This document shows, piece by piece, positions 797-31,512 of a stretch of 64,000 nt of DNA; position 1 is the stretch's first letter, and the number at the start of each line of letters is the position of its first letter. The stretch lies in contig NZ_FNWW01000001.1 in NCBI RefSeq assembly GCF_900108515.1, forward strand, positions 434,001 through 498,000. Direction: 5' to 3'. The translations under genes were made by a program, and so were the position numbers. Origin of the DNA: Halobacillus karajensis. Its GTDB lineage: Bacteria; Bacillota; Bacilli; Bacillales; Halobacillaceae. Under the pieces are notes generated by a model. It had not been told where the DNA came from. It saw only the letters and a list, made by a program, of their open reading frames with translations, and ran no database searches.

Positions 797-1783
797 ATGA
801 GAAAATTCTTGACGTCAATGGTCGCTTTTGCCACGGTCTTTCTACTATTTACACCTAATGCTTTTGCAGGACAAAGTGTTCGGGACCAAGTAGTAGATAT
901 CGCCTATCAGTATTCTGATTCACCTTATGTCTATGGAGGATCATCACCAAGCGGTTTTGACTGCTCTGGTTACACATCCTATGTTTATGGCAAAGCGGGG
1001 ATTAGCTTGAAAAGAACTTCCCGTGATCAATATACACAAGGCGAATATGTTAAACGTTCAGATTTGAAACCAGGGGACTTGGTCTTTTTCGGCAGTCCGA
1101 TCTGGCACGTTGGGATTTACATAGGAAATAACAAAATGATTTCTGCAGAAAATTCCACCGATGATATCGAAGTTGCATCTCTGACTGGTTACTGGGACCG
1201 TAACTATGCTGGTGCTAAACGTGTGATTAAAGACGAACCAGTCGAATCGGCCGAACAAAAGCCGGAAACACTGGATGACTACGATGATGTGGCGGTTAAT
1301 TACTGGGCCGCCGATCAAATCGAATACATGAGTGACAAAGGAATTATCGAAGGATACAATGGTTCATTCATGCCGAAAGATGACATTACACGTGGATCTG
1401 TCGCAAAAATGATGGCTGTCGCTCTTGGCATCAGCCCATCCAACAATCAACAATTCTCTGATGTATCTTCTTCTCACTGGGCGTCCGGTTACATCAACGC
1501 CATGGCTGAGAAAGGCTATATCACAGGTTATGAAAACGGAACCTTTGATCCAGATGCCGACATCACACGTGAAGAAATCGCGGCGATCTTCCACAAGACA
1601 TTTAACTTGAGTGGTTCAACATCTGATTTCAAAGATGTGGACAGTAACTACTGGGCTTACGAAGAAATTCAAAGTATGGCTGCTTCCTCTATCACTACGG
1701 GGTATACAGATAATACGTTCAGACCAACAAACGATGCATCCAGAAGTGAATTCACTGTATTCTTATATCGTGCCATTAAATAA
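797..1783 (+). CDS. Secreted NlpC/P60 endopeptidase with three SLH domains
   Basis: A 328-residue secreted peptidoglycan hydrolase. The signal peptide is residues 1-24 (cleavage AFA/G). The NlpC/P60 domain (about 28-145) has the catalytic Cys56 in GFDCSGY and His104 in WHVGIYIG; the third catalytic position, often His in an I-H-A motif, is Ser here (MISAEN), a variation known in the family. Three SLH domains (about 160-328) should bind pyruvylated wall polysaccharide and hold the enzyme under or in the S-layer. The family cuts D-Glu-diaminopimelate bonds of stem peptides. The start is set by AAGGGGAG 11 bases upstream. The gene stands alone between terminators and has a WalR-like box upstream. 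Confidence 0.9.
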   Translation: MRKFLTSMVAFATVFLLFTPNAFAGQSVRDQVVDIAYQYSDSPYVYGGSSPSGFDCSGYTSYVYGKAGISLKRTSRDQYTQGEYVKRSDLKPGDLVFFGSPIWHVGIYIGNNKMISAENSTDDIEVASLTGYWDRNYAGAKRVIKDEPVESAEQKPETLDDYDDVAVNYWAADQIEYMSDKGIIEGYNGSFMPKDDITRGSVAKMMAVALGISPSNNQQFSDVSSSHWASGYINAMAEKGYITGYENGTFDPDADITREEIAAIFHKTFNLSGSTSDFKDVDSNYWAYEEIQSMAASSITTGYTDNTFRPTNDASRSEFTVFLYRAIK

Positions 1784-1787
1784 ACAG

Positions 1788-1826
1788 AAAGAGGGAGGAT
1801 CTTCAAAAGATCCCCCCTCTTTTTTA
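1788..1826 (+). terminator. Terminator after the NlpC/P60-SLH gene
   Basis: A stem of AGAGGGAGGATCTT with AAGATCCCCCCTCT (two mismatches) is followed by six T. Confidence 0.88.
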
Positions 1827-1904
1827 TCCTTTTCTTATTAGATTAAACGTCTGCGTGTCAATCTATGAAATTACGAGCGATGTTTCTCATGCTCAATAAT
1901 TGAT

Positions 1905-1949: not shown

Positions 1950-1952
1950 AGT

Positions 1953-3326
1953 TTATTTGCCTTTCCATTCATAATAATCAAGGATACCTTGAGAGATCCC
2001 TTTAGCAGCTTTGTCCCTCCAGTAGCTGGAGCCAAGCTTAGAGGCATCTGAATCATTTGTCATAAACCCTAATTCAACAAGGGTCGAAGGTATCGTAGTC
2101 TCTTTAATGACACGGTAAGGTACATCTTTCACTCCGCGGTCTGACGTACCCAGAGCTTCTACTAAACGCTTCTGAATGAAGGTCGCCAATTGCTTACTAT
2201 CCGTTACTCTCAAGCTTTGAGAAGAATAATAGGTTTCAGTTCCATTGGCACTCGGGTCACTGAACGCATTCGCATGAATACTTACGAACGTATCCGCGCC
2301 TTGGCTTACAGCATAACTGTTACGATCATCGAGTGGAATGAAGGTATCATCCGTTCGTGTCATAATGACTTCTACTCCACTGTTCTCTAAATAGTCACGT
2401 AAACGTTTGGATACATTCAAGTTAATTTCTTTTTCTACTAAACCATTGAACTCTGCGCCGCCGTCTTTTCCACCATGGCCGGGATCAATCGCGATCACAC
2501 GTGATCCGGAAGTCTTGCGGACTGTATAATCTTTATGTACATAACCTTTGAGACTTCCTGCCGTCATTTTCAACCAGTCGCCTTGTACCTCATGGACTTG
2601 GAGCACGGCTCCTTTGGCAAGTTGCCCAATCCGTGTATAAGAAGTGCTTGGGCCAGAACGGACATTCAGTACATCAGTCGTGACTCTCTCCTCAATGACA
2701 CCTTCTTCCTGTGACACTTTAAAAGAATCATTCATCCCACGAGCCAGCAGTAAAGAAAATTCCGTTCGGGTAATGGATTGTGTTGGACGGAACGTACCGT
2801 CACTATATCCATTGGCAATCCCTGCCGTTGTGATTTTGTTAATCGCTTCATATTGAGAGCCTGAACGGCTTACATCTGAATACCAAACAGAGCTTTGCTC
2901 TTCAAGGGAAAAGGCTTTTGAAATAAGGTACGCCATTCCCCCTCTCGTCATCGCTTTCTTTGGTCGATAGGTACCGTCTGTAAAGCCTGTGATAATTCCT
3001 TCTTCATAAGCCGATTGTATGTATCCCGATGCATAAGAGCTGGCATCTACTTCAGGAAAAACGGTATCGCGTTGACGGCCATCCAGCCCAAGCGCTCTCC
3101 CTACCATAGTCGCGGCCTGCTCTCGGGTAACAGGGTCATTTGGACCGAAATTCCCGTTCGGGTACCCTTTAATAATTCCCCGATCAATTAAATAGTGGAT
3201 TTCGGTTTCATATTTCTCCGGGACATCATGAAAAGCCGATGCCTTCCCTTGTGGAATAAAAACAGCCACTAAAAATATCAAAAATCCAAAACCACCATAT
3301 ATCCACTTTTTTGACATGTTTGACAT
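1953..3326 (-). CDS. N-acetylmuramoyl-L-alanine amidase with SLH and SH3b domains (copy 1)
   Basis: A 457-residue secreted wall hydrolase. Order of parts: signal peptide (to about residue 31, GKASA), three SLH domains (about 32-200), a bacterial SH3 domain (about 213-270), then an Amidase_3 zinc domain (about 276-455). The zinc and catalytic residues are visible in IDPGHGGKDGG, LVEKEINL, VSIHANAF and TLVELGFM. The enzyme cuts between muramic acid and L-Ala. The same domain order recurs in the gene at 24368-25750, so the two are paralogues. AAGGAGG lies only 4 bases from the first ATG, so the in-frame ATG at 3317 (MSKKW) may be the real start. Confidence 0.9.
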   Translation of the reverse strand: MSNMSKKWIYGGFGFLIFLVAVFIPQGKASAFHDVPEKYETEIHYLIDRGIIKGYPNGNFGPNDPVTREQAATMVGRALGLDGRQRDTVFPEVDASSYASGYIQSAYEEGIITGFTDGTYRPKKAMTRGGMAYLISKAFSLEEQSSVWYSDVSRSGSQYEAINKITTAGIANGYSDGTFRPTQSITRTEFSLLLARGMNDSFKVSQEEGVIEERVTTDVLNVRSGPSTSYTRIGQLAKGAVLQVHEVQGDWLKMTAGSLKGYVHKDYTVRKTSGSRVIAIDPGHGGKDGGAEFNGLVEKEINLNVSKRLRDYLENSGVEVIMTRTDDTFIPLDDRNSYAVSQGADTFVSIHANAFSDPSANGTETYYSSQSLRVTDSKQLATFIQKRLVEALGTSDRGVKDVPYRVIKETTIPSTLVELGFMTNDSDASKLGSSYWRDKAAKGISQGILDYYEWKGK

Positions 3327-3643: not shown

Positions 3644-6600
3644 TTACTTTTTAAAACGATCATCTTCAGCTCTTGCTAAGAACATAGCAAACTCTGAACG
3701 TCTCGTTTCATTATTCGGTTGGAACGTTCCATCTGTGTAACCTGTGGTAATTTCATTCGCGTAAAGTGTGTTGATGTACGGAGCTGCCCAATTAGTAAGG
3801 GGTACGTCTTTGAATTTCTTAGATGTACTTCCTTCCAACTCATACGCTTCGACAACGATCTTAGCCATTTCTGCACGGGTGAGTGTCTTATCAGGCATGA
3901 ATTCACCTTTATCTGAACCAACCATGATTCCAGCGTTGGCAATGGCTGCAATTTCTTCATAGGCACGGTCTCCTGACTGTACATCGGCAAGACCCGGATC
4001 TTCCACTTGAGAAGTATCAAGATCGAAGGCACGTACAATCATTTGAGCCGCTTGGCGACGAGTGATTGGATCATCAATCCCAAAGTCGCCGTTCGGGTAT
4101 CCATTGATGACACCCGCTACATTCAATTTCTGGATCGCTTCTTTAGCCCAATAACTATCGCCGACGTCCGTAAAGTCTTTGGGTTCTTCATCACTTTGAT
4201 AAATGGTGATCTGCTTGGAAGTCACAAGACCGGCACCATCTTCGACTTCCAGTTTGAAGCTGTTCTTCCCTTGTTCTAATTGGACGGTATGGGTATAATC
4301 CTTCTCAATCGCTTCCATATTATAAGGAGATTTGGATTCTTGAGCAAAGACTTCACTTCCATCCACATAAAGACGTAAGGAGTCATCATTATCTTTCATG
4401 TTGACGGCTACATCTACTTCATCTTCACTCGACATATGCGGCCCATCAACAGTGACTTCTGGACTTGTCGTGTCTAATAAGAAACGACGAGTGAACGAAA
4501 TGTCGTTTCCGCTGTCATCAACAGCTACAAACTCCAGTTCTTTCATACCATCAGACTTGAAGTTGATCGTTGTGTTGAAGTTGTAACGTTTGTTTTCAGA
4601 ATCCCAAGTCAACTTCACTTCTTCGCCATTAATGGCAAGACTCTCAACTTCCGAATCATCCTGTACATAACCGACGACTTGAACAGCTCGATCGGTATAG
4701 TATTCCAGCGCTTCAGGAGTTAAGGCTGTCACGTATGGGATTGTTCCGTCCTCTCCCTCAAGGGCACTGTCTGTTGTCGTGTTCCCTGCATAGTCGTGAG
4801 CAACAACTCTTACACTTTCCACTTCATCTGTTTCCAGTTCGTAGGAGTTTGCCGCAGCAGCCAAAGGCTGTTCCAACACACTCTTGCCATTCACAAGGAC
4901 ATCAAAATGGGAAAGACCAGATCCTTGGTCATCCGCTTCCCAAGTCACTTCATTGGTTTCTTTATCATAGGTCACATCCAAAGATGGTGTTTGTGTATCA
5001 ACACGAACAGGAATCAGCTTGGACTGCCATTCCGCATCCGGATAATCAACCACAGACTTCACTTCATAGTAGTACAAGCCATCTTCTACCACTTCACCTT
5101 TGACTTTACCATCCCAGGCTGCTTTGTCATAAATGGTATAAGATGGACCTGATCCTCCATCATAGTAGTGTTTTCTAACTTCATCCTGTGAACGCAGAGT
5201 ACGTAGCTTTTCCTTATCCTCATTCAGGATATTGAATTCTACTTCTTTCGCATTTCTTAAGAATGATAGAATCGGCATCACTGTATCAGCCATTTGATCT
5301 CCATCTGGAGAGAAGCCGATATTCCGCTTAGAACCAGCGAGTGCCTCTTCTTCACCTAGTAGTGGATCAACACCTAAATAGTGAAGTTCCGCACCAAGCG
5401 GGGTTAACAAACCTGTTTGACCATAGAAGGATTCTCCCTCCTCCCCATCATAGATCGTATCATCGATGATTGGAGCCTGATCCCATTCGCCGTTGAAGCC
5501 AACATAAGGAACGTTCAGTACTGGATTCACATCATTTGGATCCTCAAGGGTAATAAACCCTTCTACAAAGTACCCATTTTCAAAGATTTCTTCCAAAGGA
5601 ACGTTATAGAACCAATCAATTCCTTCTGAAAGATCAACGGTGACTTCAATATCCACAGAAGATTCCGCTGGAACCAGCACTTGATACTCCCCATCGACTT
5701 CGCTTCCATTGGACGACGTTATCTCGATCGGAAATTCGCCGGCATAAGGTTCTTCTTCGCTAATGGTGCCCTCTTTATAAATTCCTTGTGTTTCGACAAG
5801 GTTTTCGCCATCGGCTACAAGATCCGTTTGAACCGTCCCAGATACGTTATAGACCGTATTCTCATCACTGAAGTTTTCTACCGTAAGTGTGAACGTTTCT
5901 TTTTCATTATCTATTTCTTTCAAGGCTACTTTACCAAGTCCGGATTCTTTCTCTGTTGCGATCACAGGCGTCTGCATGGCTGCATGAAGATCCATCAGCC
6001 CTGCCCCCTGGCGCCGTGGAGAGAACCCTAAACCAGATTGGTAATGATCATTGTATAAGCCTGTATCGATCTGAGGCTCAGATGTGTTCATCAAAATGTT
6101 TTTAGCTAGTTCAACACGATCTTGACCCTCAACATCAAAGTCTTCTTCTATACGCTGCATCACAAGAGCCGAACCGCCGGCTACGTGCGGAGCCGCCATG
6201 GATGTCCCACTCATCAAACCATATTCATCTTCTTGAAGAGTAGAAAGAATATTTCCACCAGGTGCCGTGATCTCAGGTTTGAAATCAAGGTTAGGTGTCA
6301 CACCCCAGGACGTAAAGGAAGACAAGTTCCCGAATTCAGGGTTGATAGATTTCACTTCTTCTCCCTCAAAAGAGATTTCCACGGTATTTCCTGCCTCTAG
6401 TTCGTCTCTCATGTTTTCCCCGAGTTCTTTCAGAATAGACAATTGAGGGATATTGATTTCCCCGCTTGAAGCCATGCTGATATAACCACCGACATTGTTG
6501 AAGATGATGACACCTTTCGCTCCGTGTTCCTGAGCATTCAATGTCTTACTGACGAAGGTGGATTCTCCACGTTGAATCAACACGATTTTATCTTTTACAT

Positions 6601-7996
6601 CAATACCTTCAAAATCGTTAGCCTCTGGGTTCGCATCAGAATCCCCAGGTGTTCTTCCCAGGCCTGCATAGACCACTTCATGGTACCCGTCTTCCAGAGA
6701 TTCAGGATCTACACTGCTCGCAGATAAGAAGGGTACTGGATCACCTTCTTCTCCATTCACTCGCGTAGTAAAACCATCCAGCATTAAGTATTCATTTTCA
6801 AATGAAGCCACCTGAAGGGAATCTGTAGAAAGACCAGGGGCGCCGACAAGTCCAATATCCGGATTGGAAGCTAACGGATTCCCAAATCCTTCCCCGAATT
6901 TAGCAGAGTTACCTGCCGAGATGGCCATCATGACACCATTATCAACCGCTCGTGCGATCGCTTTCTGTTCCGGATCCTCTTCATTTACGAAACTCGCTGT
7001 AGAACCCAGACTCATATTAATGACATCGGCCCCTAAAAGGATGGCATCATCAATAGCTTTAACATAAATATCTCCATAAGTAGAAGGCATTTCAGGGTCA
7101 TTTCCGAATACTTTCAAACCAAGGATTTGAGCTTCCGGAGCCACCCCTTTTATTCCTCCATTCTCTTCATCCCCATTTGCACCAACGGTACCGGAAACGT
7201 GCATGCCGTGCATACTCGCATCAGGTCCGAGATCCAGGACTTGCTCATTTCCATCGGCATAGTTATAACCATACGGGACTTTTTCCGTAAAGTACTTCCC
7301 GTCCAGCTCTCCAGATGATGTCAATGCATCTACATCATCTTGGCTGATTTCAGGTTCTGTTTCATCACTTAGAATCATGTCTTTATGATCAGGATCGATA
7401 CCTGTATCGATGACCCCAACGGTCATTCCCTCACCTTTGTATCCATATTCCTGCCATGTTTGCTGAGCTTTCACGAGCTCTTTACTGTAAAGCATTTCGG
7501 GCTGCTCTGTCGGACGCTTGTATTCGTTTGTGATATGTACGTTACCGACATTCGGTAAGTCTTCAATCACTGCGACAGATTTATAAGGAACGGTTCCGCT
7601 AAATCCATTGACGACGGTGGTGAAGCTTTCTTTATAATCCATCGGAATCGATTGACTTTGAATGGATGATTTCACCTGGTCCTGCGCATCCAAAGCAGTT
7701 TTGCGAAGTTTCTGTTTATTCGAATCAGATAGTTCGCTGTAACTCTTTCCTAAACTTTGGGCAGAGTAAATCGTTGGTTCATCTTCCAATTCAACAATAA
7801 TCCGCACTTCTTCATTTGCATCATACGATTTGTCTTTGTCTTCCCCTTCAGCTTTAAAAACTCTTTCTGTCGTTTTTTCTGCAGATTTTGATGCTTCCTC
7901 TAAGTTTTTATTAGGGACACCAGTGGCTGCAAACACAGAATTAGAAAAAGCCAGAAGGAAAATAAACATTAAAATTAAACTTTTTTTCAGTTTCAA
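3644..7996 (-). CDS. Giant cell-envelope subtilisin-like protease with PA insert and three SLH domains
   Basis: A 1450-residue secreted S8 protease. Signal peptide 1-23; inhibitor-I9 type prodomain about 64-160; catalytic Asp197 (GVIDTGID), His263 (HGMHVSG) and Ser599 (SGTSMAAPH), with oxyanion Asn363; a protease-associated (PA) domain is inserted at about 430-545, as in lactocepin and C5a-peptidase types. A long middle part (about 680-1265) looks like Fn3/Ig-like beta repeats, and three SLH domains close the protein (about 1270-1450). It is expected to sit in the S-layer and cut external proteins or process surface proteins. The start codon is TTG, preceded by GAGGGGGA; no ATG fits the signal peptide. 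The gene stands alone with its own terminator. Confidence 0.92.
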   Translation of the reverse strand: MKLKKSLILMFIFLLAFSNSVFAATGVPNKNLEEASKSAEKTTERVFKAEGEDKDKSYDANEEVRIIVELEDEPTIYSAQSLGKSYSELSDSNKQKLRKTALDAQDQVKSSIQSQSIPMDYKESFTTVVNGFSGTVPYKSVAVIEDLPNVGNVHITNEYKRPTEQPEMLYSKELVKAQQTWQEYGYKGEGMTVGVIDTGIDPDHKDMILSDETEPEISQDDVDALTSSGELDGKYFTEKVPYGYNYADGNEQVLDLGPDASMHGMHVSGTVGANGDEENGGIKGVAPEAQILGLKVFGNDPEMPSTYGDIYVKAIDDAILLGADVINMSLGSTASFVNEEDPEQKAIARAVDNGVMMAISAGNSAKFGEGFGNPLASNPDIGLVGAPGLSTDSLQVASFENEYLMLDGFTTRVNGEEGDPVPFLSASSVDPESLEDGYHEVVYAGLGRTPGDSDANPEANDFEGIDVKDKIVLIQRGESTFVSKTLNAQEHGAKGVIIFNNVGGYISMASSGEINIPQLSILKELGENMRDELEAGNTVEISFEGEEVKSINPEFGNLSSFTSWGVTPNLDFKPEITAPGGNILSTLQEDEYGLMSGTSMAAPHVAGGSALVMQRIEEDFDVEGQDRVELAKNILMNTSEPQIDTGLYNDHYQSGLGFSPRRQGAGLMDLHAAMQTPVIATEKESGLGKVALKEIDNEKETFTLTVENFSDENTVYNVSGTVQTDLVADGENLVETQGIYKEGTISEEEPYAGEFPIEITSSNGSEVDGEYQVLVPAESSVDIEVTVDLSEGIDWFYNVPLEEIFENGYFVEGFITLEDPNDVNPVLNVPYVGFNGEWDQAPIIDDTIYDGEEGESFYGQTGLLTPLGAELHYLGVDPLLGEEEALAGSKRNIGFSPDGDQMADTVMPILSFLRNAKEVEFNILNEDKEKLRTLRSQDEVRKHYYDGGSGPSYTIYDKAAWDGKVKGEVVEDGLYYYEVKSVVDYPDAEWQSKLIPVRVDTQTPSLDVTYDKETNEVTWEADDQGSGLSHFDVLVNGKSVLEQPLAAAANSYELETDEVESVRVVAHDYAGNTTTDSALEGEDGTIPYVTALTPEALEYYTDRAVQVVGYVQDDSEVESLAINGEEVKLTWDSENKRYNFNTTINFKSDGMKELEFVAVDDSGNDISFTRRFLLDTTSPEVTVDGPHMSSEDEVDVAVNMKDNDDSLRLYVDGSEVFAQESKSPYNMEAIEKDYTHTVQLEQGKNSFKLEVEDGAGLVTSKQITIYQSDEEPKDFTDVGDSYWAKEAIQKLNVAGVINGYPNGDFGIDDPITRRQAAQMIVRAFDLDTSQVEDPGLADVQSGDRAYEEIAAIANAGIMVGSDKGEFMPDKTLTRAEMAKIVVEAYELEGSTSKKFKDVPLTNWAAPYINTLYANEITTGYTDGTFQPNNETRRSEFAMFLARAEDDRFKK

Positions 7997-11604: not shown

Positions 11605-11737
11605 GGAGTGATTCATATCTATTATTATACTTACCTTCCAAATATTCGCTAGTATTCTAGTATTTCGTTCAGCTATTATCCATATTATGGTATTCTATGA
11701 GTATTGAATGATTATTTATAAGGGGGAAAAATTACAT

Positions 11738-15769: not shown

Positions 15770-16510
15770 TCATCCCTGCTTATAAAACTGTTCAAATGTC
15801 TCTCCTTCAAAAGTACTGTCTACTATCCCTTTTTCTTTAATATCAGCGATTATTTTGTCAATCCAATTTTTCAACTGAGAAAGTGTGATCCAATTCGTTT
15901 GATTTTCCTCAAGAAAACGTTCAGCTACTCTTGCTGCTATACCATCACTTTTGAAAGTGATCCCTAATTCGGAAAGCTGATTCACCCAGCCCTCTTTTGT
16001 TTGCTGTTGAATTAAAAGCGAAAGGTGTTCCTTTAATACCTGGATGTGGTGCTGCAATTCCGTCTCTATTTCATGGTCAGGAGTTTTATAAATTTTCTCT
16101 TCGTTCAATCGGTTGACCACCCATTTTCTCCCTAGTGCGCCTATATTATTAAATTCGGCTATTTCCTTATCTATAAGGTAGTCTTCCAGATTCTCTATCT
16201 GCTTTTCAGGTTGTTTGGGAATTTGTTGTTTCCTGTAGCGACTCTTTACCTTTCGCCATTTAAAAAGCCCTTCTTCATATTCACCTGATTCAATGCTTAA
16301 AAATTCAATAAGACGCTGAAATTCTTCCACTTCCTCTTTTGAGAGAACCTCCTTGTTTCGTAGAGTCTTGTATTGATTATTCACGGATTCCTTTACTTGT
16401 TGAGGGTGGATATAGGGGGTGGCTGTGAATTTAATGTTGGTTAATGATAAATCTATGGGTTGTGCAGGGCCCGAAACTTTGGTGGCCATCTCAGCTGTCC
16501 TGACATTCAT
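15770..16510 (-). CDS. Uncharacterised protein encoded downstream of the S-layer gene
   Basis: A 246-residue protein I do not recognise. The ATG at 16510 (MNVRTAEMATK) is chosen because GAGGAG lies 9 bases upstream; a longer frame starting at 16573 would begin inside a hairpin. No signal peptide or membrane segment is seen. It is charged, with predicted helices (KEEVEEFQRLIEFLSIE, the middle LEDYLIDKEIAEFN, and ETELQHHIQVLKEHLSLL), so probably cytoplasmic. It follows the main SLH gene on the same strand after a short hairpin (16540-16564), so read-through could give low co-expression. An accessory or regulatory role in S-layer production is only a guess from position. Confidence 0.7.
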   Translation of the reverse strand: MNVRTAEMATKVSGPAQPIDLSLTNIKFTATPYIHPQQVKESVNNQYKTLRNKEVLSKEEVEEFQRLIEFLSIESGEYEEGLFKWRKVKSRYRKQQIPKQPEKQIENLEDYLIDKEIAEFNNIGALGRKWVVNRLNEEKIYKTPDHEIETELQHHIQVLKEHLSLLIQQQTKEGWVNQLSELGITFKSDGIAARVAERFLEENQTNWITLSQLKNWIDKIIADIKEKGIVDSTFEGETFEQFYKQG

Positions 16511-21303: not shown

Positions 21304-22512
21304 ATGAAGAAATTGACCAATCTATTCATTTCTATTTCTTTCATTGGTTTCATTATCGGAATAGGGATTTTCGCAGGAGTTACTCCGGCAAAGGAAACGT
21401 CCTATATCGAAAATCGCTCGCTTGCTCCTCCTCCCTCTCTAGAAAAGGGCAAATTTGTGAATGGAGGGTTCATGGAGGATTTTGAATCTTTTTTTACAGA
21501 CCAATTCCCTCTAAGGGATACATGGTTGAAAGCTTACCTGAATACTCAGGAAGCCTTAGGAAAAACATTTCTGCTAGGGTATTATGTATCCGAAGAGAAT
21601 TGGATAACGAAAGAACCAGATCATTCCTTTCCCGCTGATGCCTTGACCGATGGAGCAGAAAAAGTCACCAGTCTCCATCATACTTTAAAAGAGAAAGGGA
21701 TCGAATTGTATTATATAAATACCCCGCATAAAGTCAGCAATATGCAGTTCCTGCTCCCCGACTATATAGAACGGGGCTCTTATGACCGGGTACGCCATCA
21801 CTTCCTAACTTCTTTGAATAAGAACATCCCAAAGCTCGATATGGTAGACCTATTCAACGAGACTTTTACTCATAAGGAGATGAAGGAACTATTCTACAAA
21901 ACGGATCACCACTGGAACGCCCAGGGGGCTTTTCATGGCTATACATGGATCAGTGAGTGGCTGGATTCGGAAAGGGATTCCTTTACTCTTCAACCGGACA
22001 GGTTGAATAAGGATCACTTTCAAAAACAATGTCTTCCGGGGAAAGATTTCGTCGGAAGCTACAATCGTCAGCTTTACTTATCGGTAGAGACAAAAGAGAA
22101 GAAATGTGCCTACTTTCCGACTAACCATTCTTATGAAGACTTTGTGGTAGAAGCTAATGGAAAAGTGGTAGATTATGAATCCGTGTTTGGGAGAGCTTTT
22201 CATACTAACGAGAAAAGAGTTTATTACAGCACCCTTTATACCAAAGATCTCAGGGAGTTGAAGATCACGAATCCAGCCCTCAAAGGTCAAGGAGAGAAAG
22301 CCCTTGTCATTAAAGATTCATACGCGAACGCTTTATCTTTTCTTCTAGCGGAGCAGTTCTATGAAACGACTTATTATGACCCACGGTACAATAAAGATCG
22401 GGCCTTGATCGATTACATCGAAAATCACGACTTTGACCTGGTAATCTTGATGTATAATGACCCGGCAAGTGATGGAGCTATTTATGAATTTGGAAAACCT
22501 ATAGAACCTTAG
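21304..22512 (+). CDS. DHHW-family (AlgJ/AlgX-like) acetyltransferase partner
   Basis: A 402-residue protein with one N-terminal membrane anchor (about 5-25) and an external SGNH-hydrolase-like domain. The family motif DHHWNAQGAF (about residues 200-209) supplies the Asp-x-His pair, and KDSYANALSF (about 339-348) supplies the candidate catalytic Ser. AlgJ/AlgX-type proteins take acetyl groups from an MBOAT partner and move them to a polysaccharide. It lies 15 bases after the MBOAT gene, so the two form an operon. The ATG at 21304 (MKKLTN) follows GGGAAGG; an overlapping out-of-frame ATG at 21301 is ignored. Confidence 0.85.
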   Translation: MKKLTNLFISISFIGFIIGIGIFAGVTPAKETSYIENRSLAPPPSLEKGKFVNGGFMEDFESFFTDQFPLRDTWLKAYLNTQEALGKTFLLGYYVSEENWITKEPDHSFPADALTDGAEKVTSLHHTLKEKGIELYYINTPHKVSNMQFLLPDYIERGSYDRVRHHFLTSLNKNIPKLDMVDLFNETFTHKEMKELFYKTDHHWNAQGAFHGYTWISEWLDSERDSFTLQPDRLNKDHFQKQCLPGKDFVGSYNRQLYLSVETKEKKCAYFPTNHSYEDFVVEANGKVVDYESVFGRAFHTNEKRVYYSTLYTKDLRELKITNPALKGQGEKALVIKDSYANALSFLLAEQFYETTYYDPRYNKDRALIDYIENHDFDLVILMYNDPASDGAIYEFGKPIEP

Positions 22513-22673: not shown

Positions 22674-24308
22674 TTACATGGAACGAGCAAGCACAGCGGC
22701 AAGCTCTGAACGTGTAATATTCTTCTCGGGACCAAACGTTCCATCTGGGAATCCAGTAACCACCCCAGCATTCCCTACCGCCATGACAGCGTCATAACAA
22801 TAGCAATCTTCCGATACATCCGGGAATGAGACCTGTTTTTCTGAAGGGAGATCAAATACACGATGAATCATGACAGCGACCTCTGCCCTCGTAATTTTCT
22901 GTTTCGGTGCAAACGTCCCATCAGGAAGGCCTTTGATCCACCCCTCTTCTACTGCTGAGGCAATGTAGCCTGAGCCAAAGGAGGAAGCAGGAACATCAGG
23001 GAATGATGTTTCTCTTTTCGTTCCGTCAAGACCCAAACTTCTCCCGATCATCGTTACAACTTCTTCACGTGTGATTTCCCCAAGTGGAGCAAACGTTCCA
23101 TCTTTGGTTCCTTTCACAATTTCATCCTTATATAGTTGTTGAATATAAGGATAATACCAGTTTTTCTTCGTGATATCGGCAAAAGGTTTGGACAATGACT
23201 GTACTAATCCATGTCCATAATCATAGTCTTTTCCTTCTTCTCCTAAATCAACGGTGTGTTGTTCAAGAAGCTCGTGCCATTTGTCCTTGCTTGTATTCGG
23301 ATAGGCTTCCATCGTCAATGCGAGCACCCCGCTCACATAAGGGGCTGCCATCGAGGTTCCATTCATACTTCTATATCCATCCGGATCATTCTCCGTCGTA
23401 ATATAGGTGCTGTATATGTTTGTGCCTGGTGCGACAAAATCCAGGGACTTCCCACCATAGGAGAATAACGCTCTTGTATTCTTCTCGTCTACGGCGCCTA
23501 CACTGATGACACTTTCATAACGTGCCGGATACATGACATCATTTAAGTACTCTCCACTGCAAAGCACTCCATTTCCTGATGCTGCAACAACAGAGATCCC
23601 TGCCTCTTCCGCCTCTTTTAATGTGTTTTTCATACCTGTGGAAGGCTGACAGGAGGTCAAGCTTAAATTAATGATGTCTACCTTTTCTTTGATGGCCCAC
23701 TCGATCCCTGCAATGATTTCACTTTCCCAGCCATCTCCTTCTTTATTTAAAGCTTTGACCGCATAGATGTCTGCATCTGGGGCTACTCCCACTACTCCAA
23801 TATCATTATCTTCTGCAGCGATGACGCCTGCCACGTGCGTGCCATGACCATTATCATCGCTCCAGCTTTCGGTTTCATCTAAAACACTGACGCCTTTTGT
23901 AATGTCCAAGTCAGGGTGATCAGGATCAATCCCCGTATCAATGATAGCGATTTTCACACCATCACCACGCAAGCCCCATTCTCTGGATTGGGGAGTCTTT
24001 GTCGATTCATATCCCCATGTTTCTTTCTGGGCACTTGTTTTGATTTTTTGGTCATCTTCCACCCACTCAATTCCGGGGATGGCTTTTAACCATTTTTCTT
24101 CCTCTTTACTAATAGAGGCTGATACGGCTGGGATTTCATCATATGTATAGTGAATGTCAACAGATTCTAAGATTTCGTGATTCATAGATTCATCAAAACC
24201 GATGATCACCCTTGTTAAGTCCTCTTTCTCCTCTGCCGATACACCACCTGCCGCGATTATTAAAAAAGCGGTTACCCCTAAAGTAAGCGTTTTGATTGCC
24301 TGTTTCAT
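22674..24308 (-). CDS. SLH-anchored subtilisin-like protease
   Basis: A 544-residue secreted S8 protease. Signal peptide 1-25; I9-like prodomain about 30-90; catalytic Asp124 (AIIDTGIDPDH), His155 (NGHGTHVAG) and Ser319 (NGTSMAAPYVSG), with SGN at about 244-246 for the oxyanion. Cys220 and Cys250 in the catalytic domain could form a disulfide, unusual for Bacillus subtilisins. Three SLH domains (about 365-544) anchor it; the third linker carries two further Cys (DCYCYDA). It is compact compared with the giant SLH-subtilase at 3644 and has no PA insert. A likely role is surface protein turnover or nutrient proteolysis. AAGGAGGGG precedes the ATG. Confidence 0.92.
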   Translation of the reverse strand: MKQAIKTLTLGVTAFLIIAAGGVSAEEKEDLTRVIIGFDESMNHEILESVDIHYTYDEIPAVSASISKEEEKWLKAIPGIEWVEDDQKIKTSAQKETWGYESTKTPQSREWGLRGDGVKIAIIDTGIDPDHPDLDITKGVSVLDETESWSDDNGHGTHVAGVIAAEDNDIGVVGVAPDADIYAVKALNKEGDGWESEIIAGIEWAIKEKVDIINLSLTSCQPSTGMKNTLKEAEEAGISVVAASGNGVLCSGEYLNDVMYPARYESVISVGAVDEKNTRALFSYGGKSLDFVAPGTNIYSTYITTENDPDGYRSMNGTSMAAPYVSGVLALTMEAYPNTSKDKWHELLEQHTVDLGEEGKDYDYGHGLVQSLSKPFADITKKNWYYPYIQQLYKDEIVKGTKDGTFAPLGEITREEVVTMIGRSLGLDGTKRETSFPDVPASSFGSGYIASAVEEGWIKGLPDGTFAPKQKITRAEVAVMIHRVFDLPSEKQVSFPDVSEDCYCYDAVMAVGNAGVVTGFPDGTFGPEKNITRSELAAVLARSM

Positions 24309-24367: not shown

Positions 24368-25750
24368 TTATTCTTTCCAATTATAATAGTCAACAACCCC
24401 CATAGCAATGGCTCTTGCAGCCGCTTCTCTATAATGATCGGTTTTTAATTTAGAAGCGTCCGTTTCATTTGTTAAAAAGCCAATTTCTGTGAGGACAGCT
24501 GGGAGAGGATTGTGCTTAACGACTCGATATCCTACATTCTTCACCCCTCTGTTACTCATATCCATCTCTTTATAGAGGCGATTATTAATGAAAGTTGCCA
24601 GTTTGACACTTGCATACTCACGATTTGATAACCCCGCTGCATAATAGAAGGTCTCCACCCCTGTCGCACTACTTGCAAATGCGTTTGCATGAATACTGAC
24701 AAAGGCATCGGCATCATTCTTTGTGGCCAGGGCTACACGTCCATCCAAAGATGGATACCAGTCTGTCTGGCGTGTCATCACGACATCTACCCCCGTATTT
24801 TCCATATATTCGCTGGCTTTCAAACTCACATCCAGGACGAGTTCTTTTTCTACTAAACCGTTCGCACTTGCCCCAGGGTCCCTTCCCCCATGCCCCGGAT
24901 CCAGAGCTATCGTCCAATTTCCTTGGGGCTTATCTAGTAAATAGTAAGAGTGAACATACCCTTTAAGATTCCCCGAATGGATAAATCTCCAGTCTCCCTC
25001 TTTCTTATAAACCGACACCGTTTCACCAGTCATTAACCTGCCTACCGTTTCGTACTGAGTCCCAGGTCCTTGACGAACATTCAAAAAGTCCGCATCGACC
25101 ACTTTTTTACTGAGCACCTCAAGGTCTTCTTCCTGCGAAACTTTAAAAGCCGAGTTTAGCCCGCGGGCAACGAACAGGGAAAACTCTGTTCGGGTAATGG
25201 TCTTACCAGGAAGGAAGTATCCTCCGGGAGTCCCTTCAGAAATACCAGCTGTAGTCAGTAGGTTTACAGACTGATACACAGGACTCTTTTGGTTTACATC
25301 TTTATAGGAAATATCACTGGTATCTTCCAGATCGAGAGCATGGGAAATAAGATAAGCCATTTCCCCACGTGTCATCATAGACTTCGGTTTGTATGTACCA
25401 TCTGGATACCCTTTGATGATCCCTGCTTCCACAGCCGATTGAATATATCCAGAGGCATATGAACGTTCGTTAACATCAGGGAACGCTGATTTTCTTACTT
25501 GACCATTTAGACCGAGCGCACGGCCAACCATTGTAGCTGCCTGCTCTCTTGTTACTTCATCTGTCCCATGAAAGTGACCATCCGGATAACCCTTTACGAC
25601 GGATTTTCCAACCAAATACGTGATTTCACTGGTATACTTTGCAGGAATTCCTTCCATTGATGACGCGGATACCTTTATAACAGGCAGTTGACCTATGACT
25701 AAACTTAGCAAAAACAAACTTATCAACATACGTAAAACTTTCATGATCAT
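24368..25750 (-). CDS. N-acetylmuramoyl-L-alanine amidase with SLH and SH3b domains (copy 2)
   Basis: A secreted amidase of about 460 residues, a paralogue of the gene at 1953-3326 with the same order: signal peptide (to about 30, IKVSA/SS), three SLH domains, SH3b (about 205-265), Amidase_3. Active-site motifs are LDPGHGGRDPG, LVEKELVLD, VSIHANAF and LTEIGFL. ATG at 25750 (MIMKVLR) begins a good signal peptide; AAGGAG lies 12-13 bases upstream, a rather long gap, so the frame could also start at 25783 (MIYIKKEYG). Two near-identical SLH-amidases may be expressed in different conditions. It is followed by its own terminator. Confidence 0.9.
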   Translation of the reverse strand: MIMKVLRMLISLFLLSLVIGQLPVIKVSASSMEGIPAKYTSEITYLVGKSVVKGYPDGHFHGTDEVTREQAATMVGRALGLNGQVRKSAFPDVNERSYASGYIQSAVEAGIIKGYPDGTYKPKSMMTRGEMAYLISHALDLEDTSDISYKDVNQKSPVYQSVNLLTTAGISEGTPGGYFLPGKTITRTEFSLFVARGLNSAFKVSQEEDLEVLSKKVVDADFLNVRQGPGTQYETVGRLMTGETVSVYKKEGDWRFIHSGNLKGYVHSYYLLDKPQGNWTIALDPGHGGRDPGASANGLVEKELVLDVSLKASEYMENTGVDVVMTRQTDWYPSLDGRVALATKNDADAFVSIHANAFASSATGVETFYYAAGLSNREYASVKLATFINNRLYKEMDMSNRGVKNVGYRVVKHNPLPAVLTEIGFLTNETDASKLKTDHYREAAARAIAMGVVDYYNWKE

Positions 25751-26045
25751 TTTATAACCGTACTCCTTTTTAATATAAATCACAGGAGCAGCTAAGACGA
25801 CACTTCAACGGTCCTACTCCCTCCTCTGATTTTCGTATGATGCAGCAAAAACTAGCTGTTCATTATATCGGAAAAATCCGACATCTTTTTCACCCTGCTC
25901 CAACTCTTTTTTCTTTTTTTCTATCGTTTTATGGGGAGATCTAACGCTTTTATAAAAATTTGGAAGAATCAGTGCTATTCAGAAATCAATGTATCTGTTA
26001 AATTATTATTTGAATCTATTATTTAATGGGGAGGAATATTTTTTA

Positions 26046-27977
26046 ATGAAGAAATTACTTCTAATGGGCCTTAGTATCGTCTTTCTTACTGGACTTGTAT
26101 CGCCAATGTCCATAGCTGCGGAAGATGATATTACAGGAACACTGTTTGAAGAAGATATGAGGGCACTGATTGATGCCGGAATAATGGAAGGATATGGGGA
26201 CGGTACTTACGGTCCAAAAGACAAAGTTACACGTGCTCAATTCACTACGTTTATCGTTCGTGCGCTTGATATTGAATATGGCGAAGAGGAAATTGGAGAA
26301 GTCGGCTCCTCTGAGGATTATCATTACGGGGATGTAAACCCTGATAAATGGTACTACCCATACATACTTGCTGCTACTGAAGAAGGGTTGATTCAAGGGT
26401 ATCCCAATGGTAATTTCGGACCGACGGATTATATCACACGTCAGGATATGGCCATGATCATGATTAGTGCAGCAAAAATGAAAGGTGTCGTCAGTGAGGC
26501 TGAAGAAATTAACTTTGAAGATAATGATAAGATTATGGACTACGCCTTTGAAGCTGTTCAGCGATTGAAGAACCTTGGGATCATTAACGGAAAAGAAGAG
26601 GATGGGAAACTTTACTATGCCCCTTATGACCACACATCCCGTGGGGAAACAGCAGCGGTTATCAACCGTTTGTTGAAGGTGCTAGAACCTCCGAAAGAGT
26701 TAGATTACCGTGTAGCTACTCTTACACCAGATGAGGATCCGCAGATTCATAGATCATTTGAAACTTATGATGAGGCGGTTGCCTACGCACAAGGGAACCA
26801 GGTCGTTTTGAATGGAAATAATATTGTCTGGATTAATGATGGTCAAGCTACAACCAATGCGTTCACTATTCTTTACACATCCGAAGCTTTAACTACGGAT
26901 ACCACTTATGTCACGAGTGGTGTGGATGTGGAGGTCATCGACATCGATCAAGACTGGGTAAAAATCCGCCTCGCTGACACCGAAGGTTATGTCGATCCAG
27001 ATAAGGTGAACTTAACACCTGATCACATGGTAAAAGATCGTTCTTACTATGAGGTGAAAGACGGATGGCTTTATCACCGTTTGTACAATGCCATTAATGA
27101 AAGAACATCCCGCTACCTATACGGGGAAGCACCGGACTTTATGAAAGAGGATGGAACGTATTACAGCCATAATGGAAATACCTTTTACAAGGAAGACGGT
27201 ACCCTGGCAGGAGAAGCTTACCAATACTTTAACCGCATGCCGCTTTATACAGAAACATCCTATACAGGAGAACAACTGGATGAATATATTGCTCACGCCT
27301 CCCCAGATAGTCCATTGATTGGCACAGGAGAAGCGTTTAAGAAAGCTGAAGAGCAGTTCGGCACCAATGCTCTTTACCTGCTTGCTCACGCTATTCATGA
27401 AAGCAACTGGGGAAAGAGTGACATCGCAAGGGATAAAAATAACTTGTTCGGAATTGGCGCCAATGACGGAAACCCATACGAAGATGCATGGGAATATGAA
27501 AGTTACGAAGAAGGAATTCTGGAAGCCGCCGAAGATTTCATTATTCCACGCTACTTCGATTCTGAGTCCTACCTTAATTATGGGGCCCACCTCGGAAATA
27601 AGAGCACAGGAATGAATGTTAAGTATGCTTCTGATGCTTATTGGGGGCAAAAAATCGCCGGTCACATGTTCCGTGCAGATCAATATTTAAGCCAGAAATA
27701 CGGCCAACCATCAGAAAGCGGTGCATACGAACTAGCACAAACAATCACTCCTTATGTGAATGTACGGTCGAGTGCCGCCGTTGGAGACAACAAGCTCTAC
27801 CAGATTCCAAAATCCGGAGTCACCCTTCAGATTTTAGATGAAATGGAAGCTCGCGGAACCTGGTATGAAGTAACACCAGAAAATTTTGCAGGAAATGAAT
27901 ATGAGAAGGCCTTTGTTTATAGTGATGGCTATCCATCCTATGGCACAAGCCTAATGAAATTGCCGATTGCTAGATGA
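26046..27977 (+). CDS. Endo-beta-N-acetylglucosaminidase with three SLH domains
   Basis: A 643-residue secreted wall hydrolase. ATG at 26046 (MKKLLLMG) follows GGGGAGG; the signal peptide ends near residue 25 (SIAA/EDD). Three SLH domains (about 27-220) are followed by an SH3-like segment (about 285-325, ending TEGYVDPDKVNL), then a glucosaminidase domain (about 430-565) with ALYLLAHAIHESNWGKSDIA, where the Glu is the likely catalytic residue, and NNLFGIGA. A C-terminal SH3b part (about 575-643) holds VNVRSSAAV. It resembles LytD/LytG-type enzymes. The order differs from the amidases because SH3 parts flank the enzyme domain. Confidence 0.88.
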   Translation: MKKLLLMGLSIVFLTGLVSPMSIAAEDDITGTLFEEDMRALIDAGIMEGYGDGTYGPKDKVTRAQFTTFIVRALDIEYGEEEIGEVGSSEDYHYGDVNPDKWYYPYILAATEEGLIQGYPNGNFGPTDYITRQDMAMIMISAAKMKGVVSEAEEINFEDNDKIMDYAFEAVQRLKNLGIINGKEEDGKLYYAPYDHTSRGETAAVINRLLKVLEPPKELDYRVATLTPDEDPQIHRSFETYDEAVAYAQGNQVVLNGNNIVWINDGQATTNAFTILYTSEALTTDTTYVTSGVDVEVIDIDQDWVKIRLADTEGYVDPDKVNLTPDHMVKDRSYYEVKDGWLYHRLYNAINERTSRYLYGEAPDFMKEDGTYYSHNGNTFYKEDGTLAGEAYQYFNRMPLYTETSYTGEQLDEYIAHASPDSPLIGTGEAFKKAEEQFGTNALYLLAHAIHESNWGKSDIARDKNNLFGIGANDGNPYEDAWEYESYEEGILEAAEDFIIPRYFDSESYLNYGAHLGNKSTGMNVKYASDAYWGQKIAGHMFRADQYLSQKYGQPSESGAYELAQTITPYVNVRSSAAVGDNKLYQIPKSGVTLQILDEMEARGTWYEVTPENFAGNEYEKAFVYSDGYPSYGTSLMKLPIAR

Positions 27978-28082: not shown

Positions 28083-28814
28083 ATGAAGCAGGTAAATATA
28101 TTAGGAATTCCATTTACAAATATAGACCATGTCACGTTAGTCCAACAATTACAACAACATATAGAACAAAGAGAGAAATCTTTTGTGGCTACCGCTAACC
28201 CTGAGATTGTGATGCGTGCGCATGATGATTCCTATTATATGAATTGTTTGCAAGCCGCTTCGTACATAACAGCTGATGGGGTAGGGATTGTAAAAGCCTC
28301 CCAGCTGCTTAAAAACCCCCTTCCTGAACGGGTGACGGGTTATGACATCATGATGGAATTCCTTAAAAAAGCAAACGAAAACAAGTATCGCATCTATTTA
28401 CTTGGTGCCAAAGAAGATACATTAGAAAGAGCCGTAAAGACGATTAATCATGATTATCCAGATATAGAAGTGGCCGGTTATCGAAACGGTTATTTCCACT
28501 GGGATGATCCTACAATCGCTGAAGATATTGAACGGACAAAACCAGATATCATTTTTGTTGCTCTTGGTGCACCTAAACAAGAGCGTTGGATTGCAGAAAA
28601 CTTCCAGACATTTGGACAAGGTGTCTTCATTTGTGTAGGCGGAAGCATAGATGTCATCGCTGGGGATGTGAAGCGTGCCCCAATCAAGTGGCAGAACATG
28701 AATTTAGAATGGCTGTACAGACTGATGAGACAGCCAAGTCGTTGGAGAAGAATGCATGCTCTCCCCAGGTTTGCCTGCCGGGTGATTCGCCAAAGGTTCG
28801 GTCGTTCATCATGA
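28083..28814 (+). CDS. tagA: WecG/TagA/CpsF family glycosyltransferase (copy 1)
   Basis: A 243-residue glycosyltransferase of the TagA/WecG family, which adds N-acetylmannosamine or its uronic acid to a lipid-linked GlcNAc during wall polymer synthesis. Family motifs are visible: the TANPEIVMRA segment, ITADGVGIVKAS with the conserved Asp, and FVALGAPKQERW. AAAGGAG precedes the ATG. The stop overlaps the start of the next gene (ATGA), so tagA-csaA-csaB form one unit. It most likely builds the polysaccharide that CsaB later pyruvylates. A second family member is at 31645-32358. The exact sugar added is not known. Confidence 0.88.
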   Translation: MKQVNILGIPFTNIDHVTLVQQLQQHIEQREKSFVATANPEIVMRAHDDSYYMNCLQAASYITADGVGIVKASQLLKNPLPERVTGYDIMMEFLKKANENKYRIYLLGAKEDTLERAVKTINHDYPDIEVAGYRNGYFHWDDPTIAEDIERTKPDIIFVALGAPKQERWIAENFQTFGQGVFICVGGSIDVIAGDVKRAPIKWQNMNLEWLYRLMRQPSRWRRMHALPRFACRVIRQRFGRSS

Positions 28815-30358
28815 AAGCTTCCACCTTTCTTAAGAGTACTGTCATTCTAACCGTTGCTACACTAACTTCTAAAATATTGGGAAGTCTATTTCGCATCCCT
28901 CTTCAAAATATGGCAGGGGATGAAGTCCTGGGGATTTTCAGTCTCGTTTATCCTGTCTATATGGTCGCGCTAATCCTTTCTGTTGCTGGAATACCGATCG
29001 CTATATCCAAGCTGATCGCAGAGGCTCGGACATCTGGGTCTTCCGAGGATATTTACTATATACAAAAAACAGCCAGAATCCTTGCTCTGATCCTTGGTGC
29101 CATAACTCTCGGCGGCCTGATCACATTTTCCGGGCCACTCGCTCATGCCATTGGAGGGCTGTCAACGGAACCTGCTCTGATTGCTGTTTCTTTCACATTG
29201 CTGGCAGCTCCGTATATGGCTGTAGATCGTGGGTATTTCCAGGGTTTTGAGGATATGAAACCGACAGCCATATCCCAGGTCATCGAACAATTCATCAGAG
29301 TTTTGATCATCCTGACAGCTGCTTATGTGATGACTGCCCTGCAATTTAGTGATGCAATGATTGCGGCAGGCGTTATGTTAAGTTCGTTATTTGGTGTGAT
29401 GGGCTCAATGATTTACTTAAAAAAACGTTTGAGTCACTCTTCATTCAAGGTAACTCAAACGTATACGTATCAGCTGCGCCATTTCAAAATCTGGGGGAAG
29501 AAAATTCTTTCTGTATCTGTTCCCATTGCCATAGGTACGGTAACTATGGCTCTTTTTAACGTGGTTGATTCTTTAACCATTCCCCATTTCTTAACCAATG
29601 CAGCTGAAGGGCAAACCACTTATTTATACGGAATCTATGGTCGCGGACTCGCTTTAGTTCAAATCGCAACGGTCTTCGCTACATCTGTCGTCCTACCTTT
29701 GATTCCGTCGCTTACTACACACGTTGAATCAGGGCACAGCCAGGAAGCAAAGAAACTCATTGAAACAACCAGATGGCTGACCCATCTGTTATCATGGCCC
29801 ATTGCTGCCCTTTTGATAGGATTAGCCGTTCCTCTCAATATCGCGCTTTTCACAAACACGGAAGGTAGTCTAATGATCGCCATTACGGGATTTTCATCTA
29901 TTTTTATCTCCTTGACTTTAGTAGGAACCGCTATCTTACAAGGAATGAATGCTCCCCGTTTAGCTGCTGGTATCATTCTAATCGGTGCTCTAATGAAAGC
30001 AGGCAGTAACGCACTGCTCGTGCCGCACTATGGGATTGAAGGAGCTGCGGCCGCTTCAGGACTCACCTATTTTGTCATCATGGTCCTCAATAGTTTCGTT
30101 ATCATGAAGTTTGTTCCAATCCAGGTCCTCCCCCTTCATCTTTCTAAGATTATTTGGACCACGTTGCTATTAGGAGGACCGCTGGGCGCTGTGTTTGTCA
30201 TGACCCAGCCTTTTGAATGGTCACGAACCGTCTCTTTTCTAGTGTGCGTGATCACGGCCTTGTTATTTGTCTTTCTCTACGCCTTTGTCTTAATTAAATG
30301 GAGGGCTTACGATTACGAAGCAGTCAAAAATGTCCCGATTCTCTCCAGGTTTATTTAA
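28811..30358 (+). CDS. csaA: Polysaccharide flippase of the csaAB locus (SpoVB/MurJ-like)
   Basis: A 515-residue membrane protein with about 14 segments from the MOP/MVF flippase superfamily (SpoVB, YtgP, MurJ type), beginning MKASTFLKSTVILTVATL. The true start is the ATG at 28811 inside the tagA stop; the longer open frame upstream only overlaps tagA. In Bacillus anthracis csaA, upstream of csaB, encodes an oligosaccharide transporter. The same order here supports the name. It should flip the lipid-linked wall polysaccharide repeat to the outside. Function by family and position; no residue proves the substrate. Confidence 0.85.
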   Translation: MKASTFLKSTVILTVATLTSKILGSLFRIPLQNMAGDEVLGIFSLVYPVYMVALILSVAGIPIAISKLIAEARTSGSSEDIYYIQKTARILALILGAITLGGLITFSGPLAHAIGGLSTEPALIAVSFTLLAAPYMAVDRGYFQGFEDMKPTAISQVIEQFIRVLIILTAAYVMTALQFSDAMIAAGVMLSSLFGVMGSMIYLKKRLSHSSFKVTQTYTYQLRHFKIWGKKILSVSVPIAIGTVTMALFNVVDSLTIPHFLTNAAEGQTTYLYGIYGRGLALVQIATVFATSVVLPLIPSLTTHVESGHSQEAKKLIETTRWLTHLLSWPIAALLIGLAVPLNIALFTNTEGSLMIAITGFSSIFISLTLVGTAILQGMNAPRLAAGIILIGALMKAGSNALLVPHYGIEGAAAASGLTYFVIMVLNSFVIMKFVPIQVLPLHLSKIIWTTLLLGGPLGAVFVMTQPFEWSRTVSFLVCVITALLFVFLYAFVLIKWRAYDYEAVKNVPILSRFI

Positions 30359-30426
30359 GACGGAAATTGTTTTCATCCATCATTCCATTCATAAGGAGAA
30401 CGGTGGTAAAAATTGAGGTGAAAGTT

Positions 30427-31512
30427 ATGAAGCTCGTCATTTCCGGATACTATGGATTTCAAAACACAGGAGACGAAGCCATATTAAAGTCTATCATTCA
30501 ACATTTCAGAACGACGGATCCTTCTATTGAGCTTATTGTACTGTCGCAACAACCGGAACATACGATGGAGGATTATGGAGTGAAGGCCGTCAATCGGTGG
30601 AATATCAAGGAAATAATAAAAGCTCTTAAGTCTTCCGACGGTCTCATTAGTGGCGGCGGCAGTTTGTTACAGGATACCACTGGTCCCAAATCCGTTCTCT
30701 ACTACACAGGGGTCATGCACATGGCCCGTCTGTTAAATAGACCCGTTTACATTTATGCTCAAGGAATGGGGCCGCTTACTAAACCGTTCAGTCGATTCCT
30801 CGTCCGATATGCCTTAAATAAAGTGGATGGCCTCACTGTGCGCGATGAAACTTCTGAACAATTGCTTAAACAAATCGGGATCAAAAAAGAAATTCAAGTC
30901 TATTCTGATCCCGTTTTTGGTTATTCATTTAAGGAAAAGCCCCTCTCGCGCAAGTCTCGCTTAAACGATAAGCCGCTCATCGCTGTGAGTGTGCGCGAAT
31001 GGGGAGATTCCCTAGCATTAGCGGACAAACTTGCCGAATCATTGGACCAGTGTGCGGCACGTGGATATGCCATCTCCTTTTTACCTATGCACGGAAAGGC
31101 AGATGAACAATTCTCGAAAAAAATTGCCCGGAAGATGAAAAAAGAAGCAGAGGTGCACTCAGGGGATTTATCGATTGATGAAAAATTGATGATCTTATCA
31201 ACATGTGATTTACTCATCGGAATGCGGCTTCACTCTTTAATTTTCGCCAGTATTTGCTCTACCCCATTTGCAGCCCTCTCTTATGATCCTAAAATAGAGG
31301 CCTTAACCAAACAATTAGGCTATCCAGTCACTGCAAATGTAAACCATTCAGATTGGGATCCATCCTCCATTCCTGAAGAAATAGAACGTTTATATCAAAA
31401 CCTGGCGCTCTCTAAAGAACAATTAGAAGAGGCTGCCACTCCGCATGCTCGAAATGCTCAACAGGCAGCGAAAGCCGCTTTGGAAATTTTCAGAACCAAG
31501 AAAAAGTACTAG
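30427..31512 (+). CDS. csaB: Polysaccharide pyruvyl transferase CsaB
   Basis: A 361-residue enzyme with the polysaccharide pyruvyltransferase fold: MKLVISGYYGFQNTGDEAIL at the N-terminus, GLISGGGSLLQD (about 78-89), IYAQGMGPL, and the C-terminal LIGMRLHSLIFA. CsaB adds ketal-pyruvate from phosphoenolpyruvate to the peptidoglycan-linked polysaccharide, making the ligand of SLH domains. With nine SLH proteins upstream, this gene is central for the island. GAGGTGA precedes the ATG at 30427; a GTG three codons upstream (30418) is an alternative. A strong terminator follows. Confidence 0.95.
   Translation: MKLVISGYYGFQNTGDEAILKSIIQHFRTTDPSIELIVLSQQPEHTMEDYGVKAVNRWNIKEIIKALKSSDGLISGGGSLLQDTTGPKSVLYYTGVMHMARLLNRPVYIYAQGMGPLTKPFSRFLVRYALNKVDGLTVRDETSEQLLKQIGIKKEIQVYSDPVFGYSFKEKPLSRKSRLNDKPLIAVSVREWGDSLALADKLAESLDQCAARGYAISFLPMHGKADEQFSKKIARKMKKEAEVHSGDLSIDEKLMILSTCDLLIGMRLHSLIFASICSTPFAALSYDPKIEALTKQLGYPVTANVNHSDWDPSSIPEEIERLYQNLALSKEQLEEAATPHARNAQQAAKAALEIFRTKKKY

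Follow-up and report, generated by a model that had tools for sequence, protein, structure and literature searches.

Which of the surface proteins encoded around secA2 and slaP in Halobacillus karajensis leave the cell by SecA2–SlaP? We addressed this question in a stretch of 64,000 nucleotides (contig NZ_FNWW01000001.1, positions 434,001–498,000; the window), in which nine SLH proteins, SecA2, SlaP, a PatA/PatB-like pair and TagA–CsaA–CsaB lie within 31 kb (the island; Table 1), as described in an earlier note on this DNA. The catalytic domains named there are likewise present: NlpC/P60, two Amidase_3, two S8 proteases, SLT, 5′-nucleotidase and glucosaminidase. The further prediction that SecA2 exports the neighbours is not supported in that form: the signal-peptide class that tracks SecA2 is found on just two of the nine SLH proteins, and five of the enzyme kinds persist in relatives that have no SecA2 or SlaP over the cut-off. 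We consider it probable, with some reserve, that the region is an enlarged S-layer locus in which SecA2–SlaP would be a reserved lane for two signal-marked precursors, the other seven SLH proteins passing through ordinary SecA.

The nucleotidase and the S-layer-type protein begin with a signal peptide whose core is rich in Ala, Ser and Thr and has few Leu, Ile or Phe residues, and which stops shortly ahead of the first SLH domain. Ordinary signals are found on the remaining seven SLH proteins of the window. Searched with a profile built from 15 such signal stretches, the window's genome yields these two genes and nothing else at E ≤ 0.1. Among the neighbourhoods fetched, which for SecA2-positive genomes were chosen stretches only, the profile matches 23 open reading frames (ORFs), training rows included, in 14 of 15 SecA2-positive genomes. 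The profile took the place of an earlier composition cut, which missed two nucleotidase signals. By that cut, 20 of 59 N-terminal SLH ORFs pass in SecA2-positive stretches and none of 12 in SecA2-negative ones, the corresponding counts for C-terminal SLH ORFs being 1 of 53 and 1 of 27. We also built a profile of the signal alone from Halobacillus and Thalassobacillus sequences and, with the seven SlaP loci (of 80) from these training genera left out, applied it to the 73 named SlaP loci from other genera. It matches 15 of 1716 ORFs, each of them one of the 65 N-terminal SLH proteins; the 58 C-terminal SLH proteins in these loci give no match, and neither do the 504 ORFs in the stretches from five SecA2-negative genomes.

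The genus Halobacillus amounts to a natural deletion series, in which SLH genes and csaB occur with and without SecA2–SlaP. Fifteen of 22 genomes of the genus (G000–G021) have csaB over the cut-off together with at least 21 SLH matches, and seven (G005, G008, G010–G013 and G018) have no SLH match and no csaB, SecA2 or SlaP over the cut-off. Of 41 relatives, 20 have SecA2 over its cut-off, and SlaP exceeds its own in exactly these 20. Bacillus subtilis, used as a control, gives no TIGR04397 match over the cut-off. Both are below the cut-off in four Halobacillus genomes with csaB (G003, G006, G017 and G021), which contain 22, 28, 33 and 41 SLH matches, respectively. In the first three, SLH genes of five enzyme kinds (NlpC, amidase, large S8, small S8 and glucosaminidase) lie beside TagA–CsaA–CsaB, and all five kinds carry ordinary hydrophobic signal peptides; G021 is too fragmented for judging gene order. 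The N-terminal-SLH nucleotidase, the S-layer-type protein and its 246-residue neighbour were not found in the fetched stretches of the SecA2-negative genomes, which for G006 cover its SLH places except for five weaker ones on contigs 1 and 4. G006, G017 and G021 instead encode a nucleotidase-like protein with C-terminal SLH domains and an ordinary signal.

Since the five SLH enzyme kinds stand beside csaB without SecA2 or SlaP over the cut-off, SecA2 is evidently not needed for most of its neighbours, and on the strength of the enzymes kept in these genomes we reject a role for it as general exporter of the island. The gene-order comparison that the earlier note had proposed thus gives a divided answer: the clustering is present in relatives, and SLH enzymes also exist without SecA2. 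Export of all or most of the nine SLH proteins by SecA2–SlaP, as one co-selected unit, would agree with the tight clustering around secA2–slaP conserved in nine of 11 SlaP-positive Halobacillus genomes, and with the statement, in an extract from PMC7503281, that secA2 genes frequently sit with their substrates. The enzyme kinds retained in G003, G006 and G017 and the ordinary signals on seven of the nine window proteins make this explanation quite improbable.

To follow the signal class across the order, SLH domains (among at most 34 scored candidates in each genome) and the signal (E ≤ 1e-5) were counted per genome in a sample of 199 genomes, and csaB homologues were counted at 129 bits or more. 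SlaP is over the cut-off in 80 genomes and the signal is found in 61, of which 60 have both. The sole genome with the signal and no SlaP over the cut-off, G207, encodes a B. anthracis-type SecA2 scoring 1148 bits, 2.6 kb from a signal-bearing S-layer-type gene (both in the locus L200:8370-16780); SlaP was not found in the 19.9 kb fetched there. Among the 67 genomes with at least nine SLH matches, 56 have SlaP and signal, one has the signal only, three have SlaP only and seven have neither (Fisher p 1e-6, a value that ignores kinship and is therefore too small). Removal of the four genomes that contributed training rows leaves 52, 1, 3 and 7. The seven double negatives (G003, G027, G073, G075, G105, G184 and G192) have no SecA2 over the cut-off and span five families, three of which also include a double-positive genome. 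A csaB homologue is present in 66 of the 67.

Several observations weigh against a dedicated lane read from the signal. In G009, the profile match is confined to the nucleotidase, so SlaP is not always paired with a signal-bearing S-layer-type protein. The single C-terminal SLH protein that passes the composition cut in SecA2-negative stretches (1 of 27) belongs to a genome without the export pair. No signal match at the threshold used is seen in G117, G171 or G180, although all three encode SlaP and are rich in SLH domains. The signal is also missing in 14 of the 16 SlaP-positive genomes with at most three SLH matches, and SecA2–SlaP must therefore have other cargo there; the slaP flanks or the signal place were fetched for 13 of these 16 (all except G079, G153 and G213). 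Finally, the signal-bearing SLH triplets may form one clade, with signal and module mostly travelling together.

This last point was examined in a tree of 101 SLH triplets, on which the signal needs two label changes. Constraining all signal-bearing triplets to one clade gives a log-likelihood 7.7 higher and a p of 0.60 in the approximately unbiased (AU) test. One clade is not rejected, which indicates that the signal and its triplet are for the most part passed on together; the test lends no support to the idea that the signal arose separately on different SLH modules. Such joint inheritance would suit an explanation in which the two proteins are SecA2–SlaP cargo but are picked by abundance, by the SLH module or by the mature part, the signal being an inherited lineage label. 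We regard this as unlikely, though not negligible: two large proteins from SlaP-positive genomes without any SLH match, in G159 (964 residues, L182:6932-9826) and G121 (887 residues, L183:5955-8618), carry the signal class and have no SLH domain by Pfam or by our own profile, and the signal is also borne by the nucleotidase, not a lattice-type protein, in all nine Halobacillus islands and in Thalassobacillus G023. The G121 gene is situated about 0.5 kb from secA2.

With these two non-SLH cases as its basis, the comparison speaks for the signal, which would be independent of the anchor, as the feature common to these proteins. Tentatively, and with less confidence than for the island itself, the code KSxRKFxAT..AAxVASAVAPxAVSA might be an order-wide address for SecA2–SlaP cargo whatever its wall anchor; the cargo would then comprise S-layer proteins, whether or not they have SLH domains, as well as the surface nucleotidase. 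The G159 and G121 proteins are themselves candidate S-layer proteins with another anchor. In G004, the S-layer-type protein is apparently divided (L046–L047, C3:668308-673465): a 381-residue signal-bearing SLH protein is followed by a 902-residue non-SLH protein, weakly like the tail of the window's S-layer-type protein, and then by a relative of the 246-residue protein.

For the island, we infer that SecA2–SlaP exports the S-layer-type protein and the nucleotidase, the signal peptide serving as the address. TagO, TagA, CsaA and CsaB would make and pyruvylate the wall polysaccharide, with the PatA/PatB-like pair probably acetylating, and the SLH triplets of the surface proteins would grip that polysaccharide. 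SecA2 with SlaP would provide a reserved route for the two signal-marked precursors, whereas the seven others would exit by ordinary SecA and meet the S-layer only at the wall. All nine could bind the pyruvylated polysaccharide made from the same locus, given that the position of the Arg in the ITRAE motif (named for SLH domains in an extract from PMC3297441) is occupied by Arg in 26 of 26 SLH domains extracted from the island.

More than the gathering of genes itself, the main interest of the locus lies in this sharp and testable division of SLH precursors into a SecA2 type and an ordinary type. From the signal class, the clients and non-clients to be expected can be listed concretely for each genome, and substrate choice can be tested by signal exchange. 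Such a division fits B. anthracis work from 2012, in which secA2 and slaP were reportedly required for Sap and EA1 and not for S-layer-associated proteins. How SecA2 chooses S-layer precursors is called unclear in a passage of a 2012 review (PMC3297441). At the surface that binds signals, SecA2 proteins resemble one another less than SecA1 proteins do, according to part of a structural study (PMC7503281), and such divergence is compatible with a signal class. We found no earlier report of this class in the literature searched, key B. anthracis secA2/slaP/slaQ papers excepted, and a prior report is possible.

The region is supported as a real, conserved S-layer locus. The secA2–slaP pair, SLH enzymes and TagA–CsaA–CsaB are found together in nine of the 11 SlaP-positive Halobacillus genomes (G000, G001, G002, G007, G009, G014, G015, G016 and G019) and in Thalassobacillus G023, with content and order largely preserved; csaB and slaP are apart in G004 and G020. 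Of the co-selected S-layer unit put forward in the earlier note, the conserved locus stands, and SecA2 as exporter of all neighbours is not supported. Among the islands fetched, PatA/PatB-like genes occur in those of G000, G014 and G016 only. In G015 (L034–L036), a number of island genes are split into two frames, as is the gene for the housekeeping SecA, a pattern that suggests assembly errors rather than decay. The SecA2 frame of G032 (L060, C1:3059818-3062196) contains two internal stops beside an intact SlaP, due either to decay or to a sequencing error.

Within the window's genome, a whole-genome search finds 30 SLH domains, of which 26 are in the island. Of the other four, an ORF at C13:367538-370060 contains three and an ORF on C6 contains the last. 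Nine of the 11 SLH ORFs thus lie within 31 kb of 4.07 Mb (p ~1e-13 under random scatter of the others). The three SLH domains that had been attributed to each protein are present in eight ORFs; the ninth, the glucosaminidase, has two over the Pfam cut-off and a third recognized by our own profile.

Long terminator-like hairpins separate genes at 1822-1788, 3634-3601, 22671-22634 and 24364-24334, although the total hairpin count of the region equals that of shuffles. Together with the alternating strands, these four hairpins indicate several transcription units and rule out the island as one operon. Promoter-like sites are not more frequent than in shuffles, and the first 40 kb, searched against Rfam, gave no matches. 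Alternating strands and hairpins between genes would also be expected of mere neighbours in a wall-turnover region, with no functional tie between SecA2–SlaP and the SLH genes, and across the order a csaB homologue (at least 129 bits) is found on the slaP contig in 50 of 80 SlaP-positive genomes, the two being no more than 20 kb apart in only 25. We nevertheless give this explanation very little credence: order and content are largely conserved in the nine Halobacillus islands and in Thalassobacillus, and in 24 of the 60 genomes with SlaP and signal, the distance from slaP to a signal-bearing gene is at most 20 kb.

Known S-layer systems provide precedents for both the export genes and the gathering. 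In an extract from PMC9277125, slaP, slaQ, secA2, csaA, csaB, sap and eag of B. anthracis are named as one S-layer cluster, contrary to the earlier note, in which these parts were spread over several loci; Sap and EA1 are exported by a dedicated accessory system, as stated in part of PMC8056022. The Halobacillus locus shares with the B. anthracis/B. cereus cluster secA2, slaP and csaB (by curated models), a flippase gene beside csaB, and a large protein with a signal and three N-terminal SLH domains, an architecture known here from sequence. Unlike that cluster, it contains nine SLH genes, eight of them with enzyme domains, and a PatA/PatB-like pair, and slaQ was not identified. In B. pseudofirmus OF4, 14 of 17 SLH genes are situated at locus tags BpOF4_05815 to 06130 (PMC5938343, in excerpt), so that a gathering of SLH genes has precedent. 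By description in the same excerpt, that region shares the amidase, glucosaminidase, hydrolase, serine protease and nucleotidase kinds; deletion of csaB led to chains and disturbed peptidoglycan, csaB being needed for retention, and secA2 and slaP are unmentioned in that paper. The SecA2 of Clostridioides difficile, by a published account, goes with SlpA and other Cwps that have CWB2 anchors, not SLH, and is essential there. As to the SecA2–SecY2 (aSec) glycoprotein export system, in which secY2 and asp genes accompany secA2, no SecY2 or Asp protein was named among the 19 scanned island proteins, the set to which this search was applied. We regard the island as an enlarged version of the known S-layer cluster, with predicted SLH-anchored wall enzymes added.

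Table 1. Genes of the island and the adjoining polysaccharide block (positions in the window)
Feature	Position	Strand	Remarks
NlpC/P60 peptidase, three C-terminal SLH, ordinary signal peptide	797..1783	+	SecA2-negative orthologs: G003, G006, G017
Amidase_3 + SH3, three N-terminal SLH, ordinary signal peptide	1953..3326	-	SecA2-negative orthologs: G003, G006, G017
Large subtilase (S8, PA, Fn3-like), three C-terminal SLH, ordinary signal peptide	3644..7996	-	SecA2-negative orthologs: G003, G006, G017 (67-69% identity)
SecA2, B. anthracis type	8217..10601	+	TIGR04397 1224.9 bits (cut-off 1085)
SlaP, accessory Sec S-layer assembly protein	10594..11493	+	TIGR04399 345.8 bits (cut-off 250); start overlaps secA2 end
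SLT transglycosylase-like + SH3, three C-terminal SLH, ordinary signal peptide	11708..13195	+	Relatives at other places in SecA2-negative G006, G017, G021
SLH 5′-nucleotidase, 736 residues, predicted SecA2–SlaP cargo	13259..15469	-	Start from signal match; ORF 13259-15508
246-residue protein, familyless, directly downstream of S-layer-type gene	15770..16510	-	Possible cytoplasmic helper
S-layer-type protein, 924 residues, predicted SecA2–SlaP cargo	16579..19353	-	Start from signal match; ORF 16579-19419
MBOAT O-acyltransferase (PatA-like)	19876..21288	+	PF03062 99 bits
DHHW/AlgX-like protein (PatB-like)	21304..22512	+	PF14286 56.9 bits
Small subtilase, three C-terminal SLH, ordinary signal peptide	22674..24308	-	SecA2-negative orthologs: G003, G006, G017
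Second Amidase_3 + SH3, three N-terminal SLH, ordinary signal peptide	24368..25783	-	
Glucosaminidase + SH3, N-terminal SLH (two over cut-off, weaker third), ordinary signal peptide	25989..27977	+	SecA2-negative orthologs: G003, G006, G017
TagA/WecG glycosyltransferase	28083..28814	+	PF03808 216 bits
CsaA-like polysaccharide flippase, directly upstream of csaB	28808..30358	+	PF01943 92 bits; CsaA name from position and family
CsaB polysaccharide pyruvyl transferase	30427..31512	+	TIGR03609 315.6 bits (cut-off 213.1)
Second TagA/WecG transferase + UDP-ManNAc-dehydrogenase-like enzyme	31645..33652	-	
O-antigen-ligase-like protein, GNAT, TagO-like glycosyltransferase 4	34132..37917	.	

The 246-residue protein has no Pfam or NCBIfam match and no signal peptide, and its predicted fold is all helical with a mean predicted local distance difference test score of 48.5, which makes the model unusable. 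Relatives occupy the same place in G014 (46%), G016 (44%) and, weakly, G004 (21%). A SlaQ-like role for the protein, as a helper in the cytoplasm, is possible.

The gene set that the earlier note had delimited at 797-31512 is found there, but its end point needs to be moved, as polysaccharide genes run on past csaB to 37917. The same block also lies 3′ of csaB in G002, G007, G014, G015 and G016. Outside the island, an IS200-like Y1 transposase protein is encoded at 54984-55580 on the + strand (PF01797, 53.5 bits).

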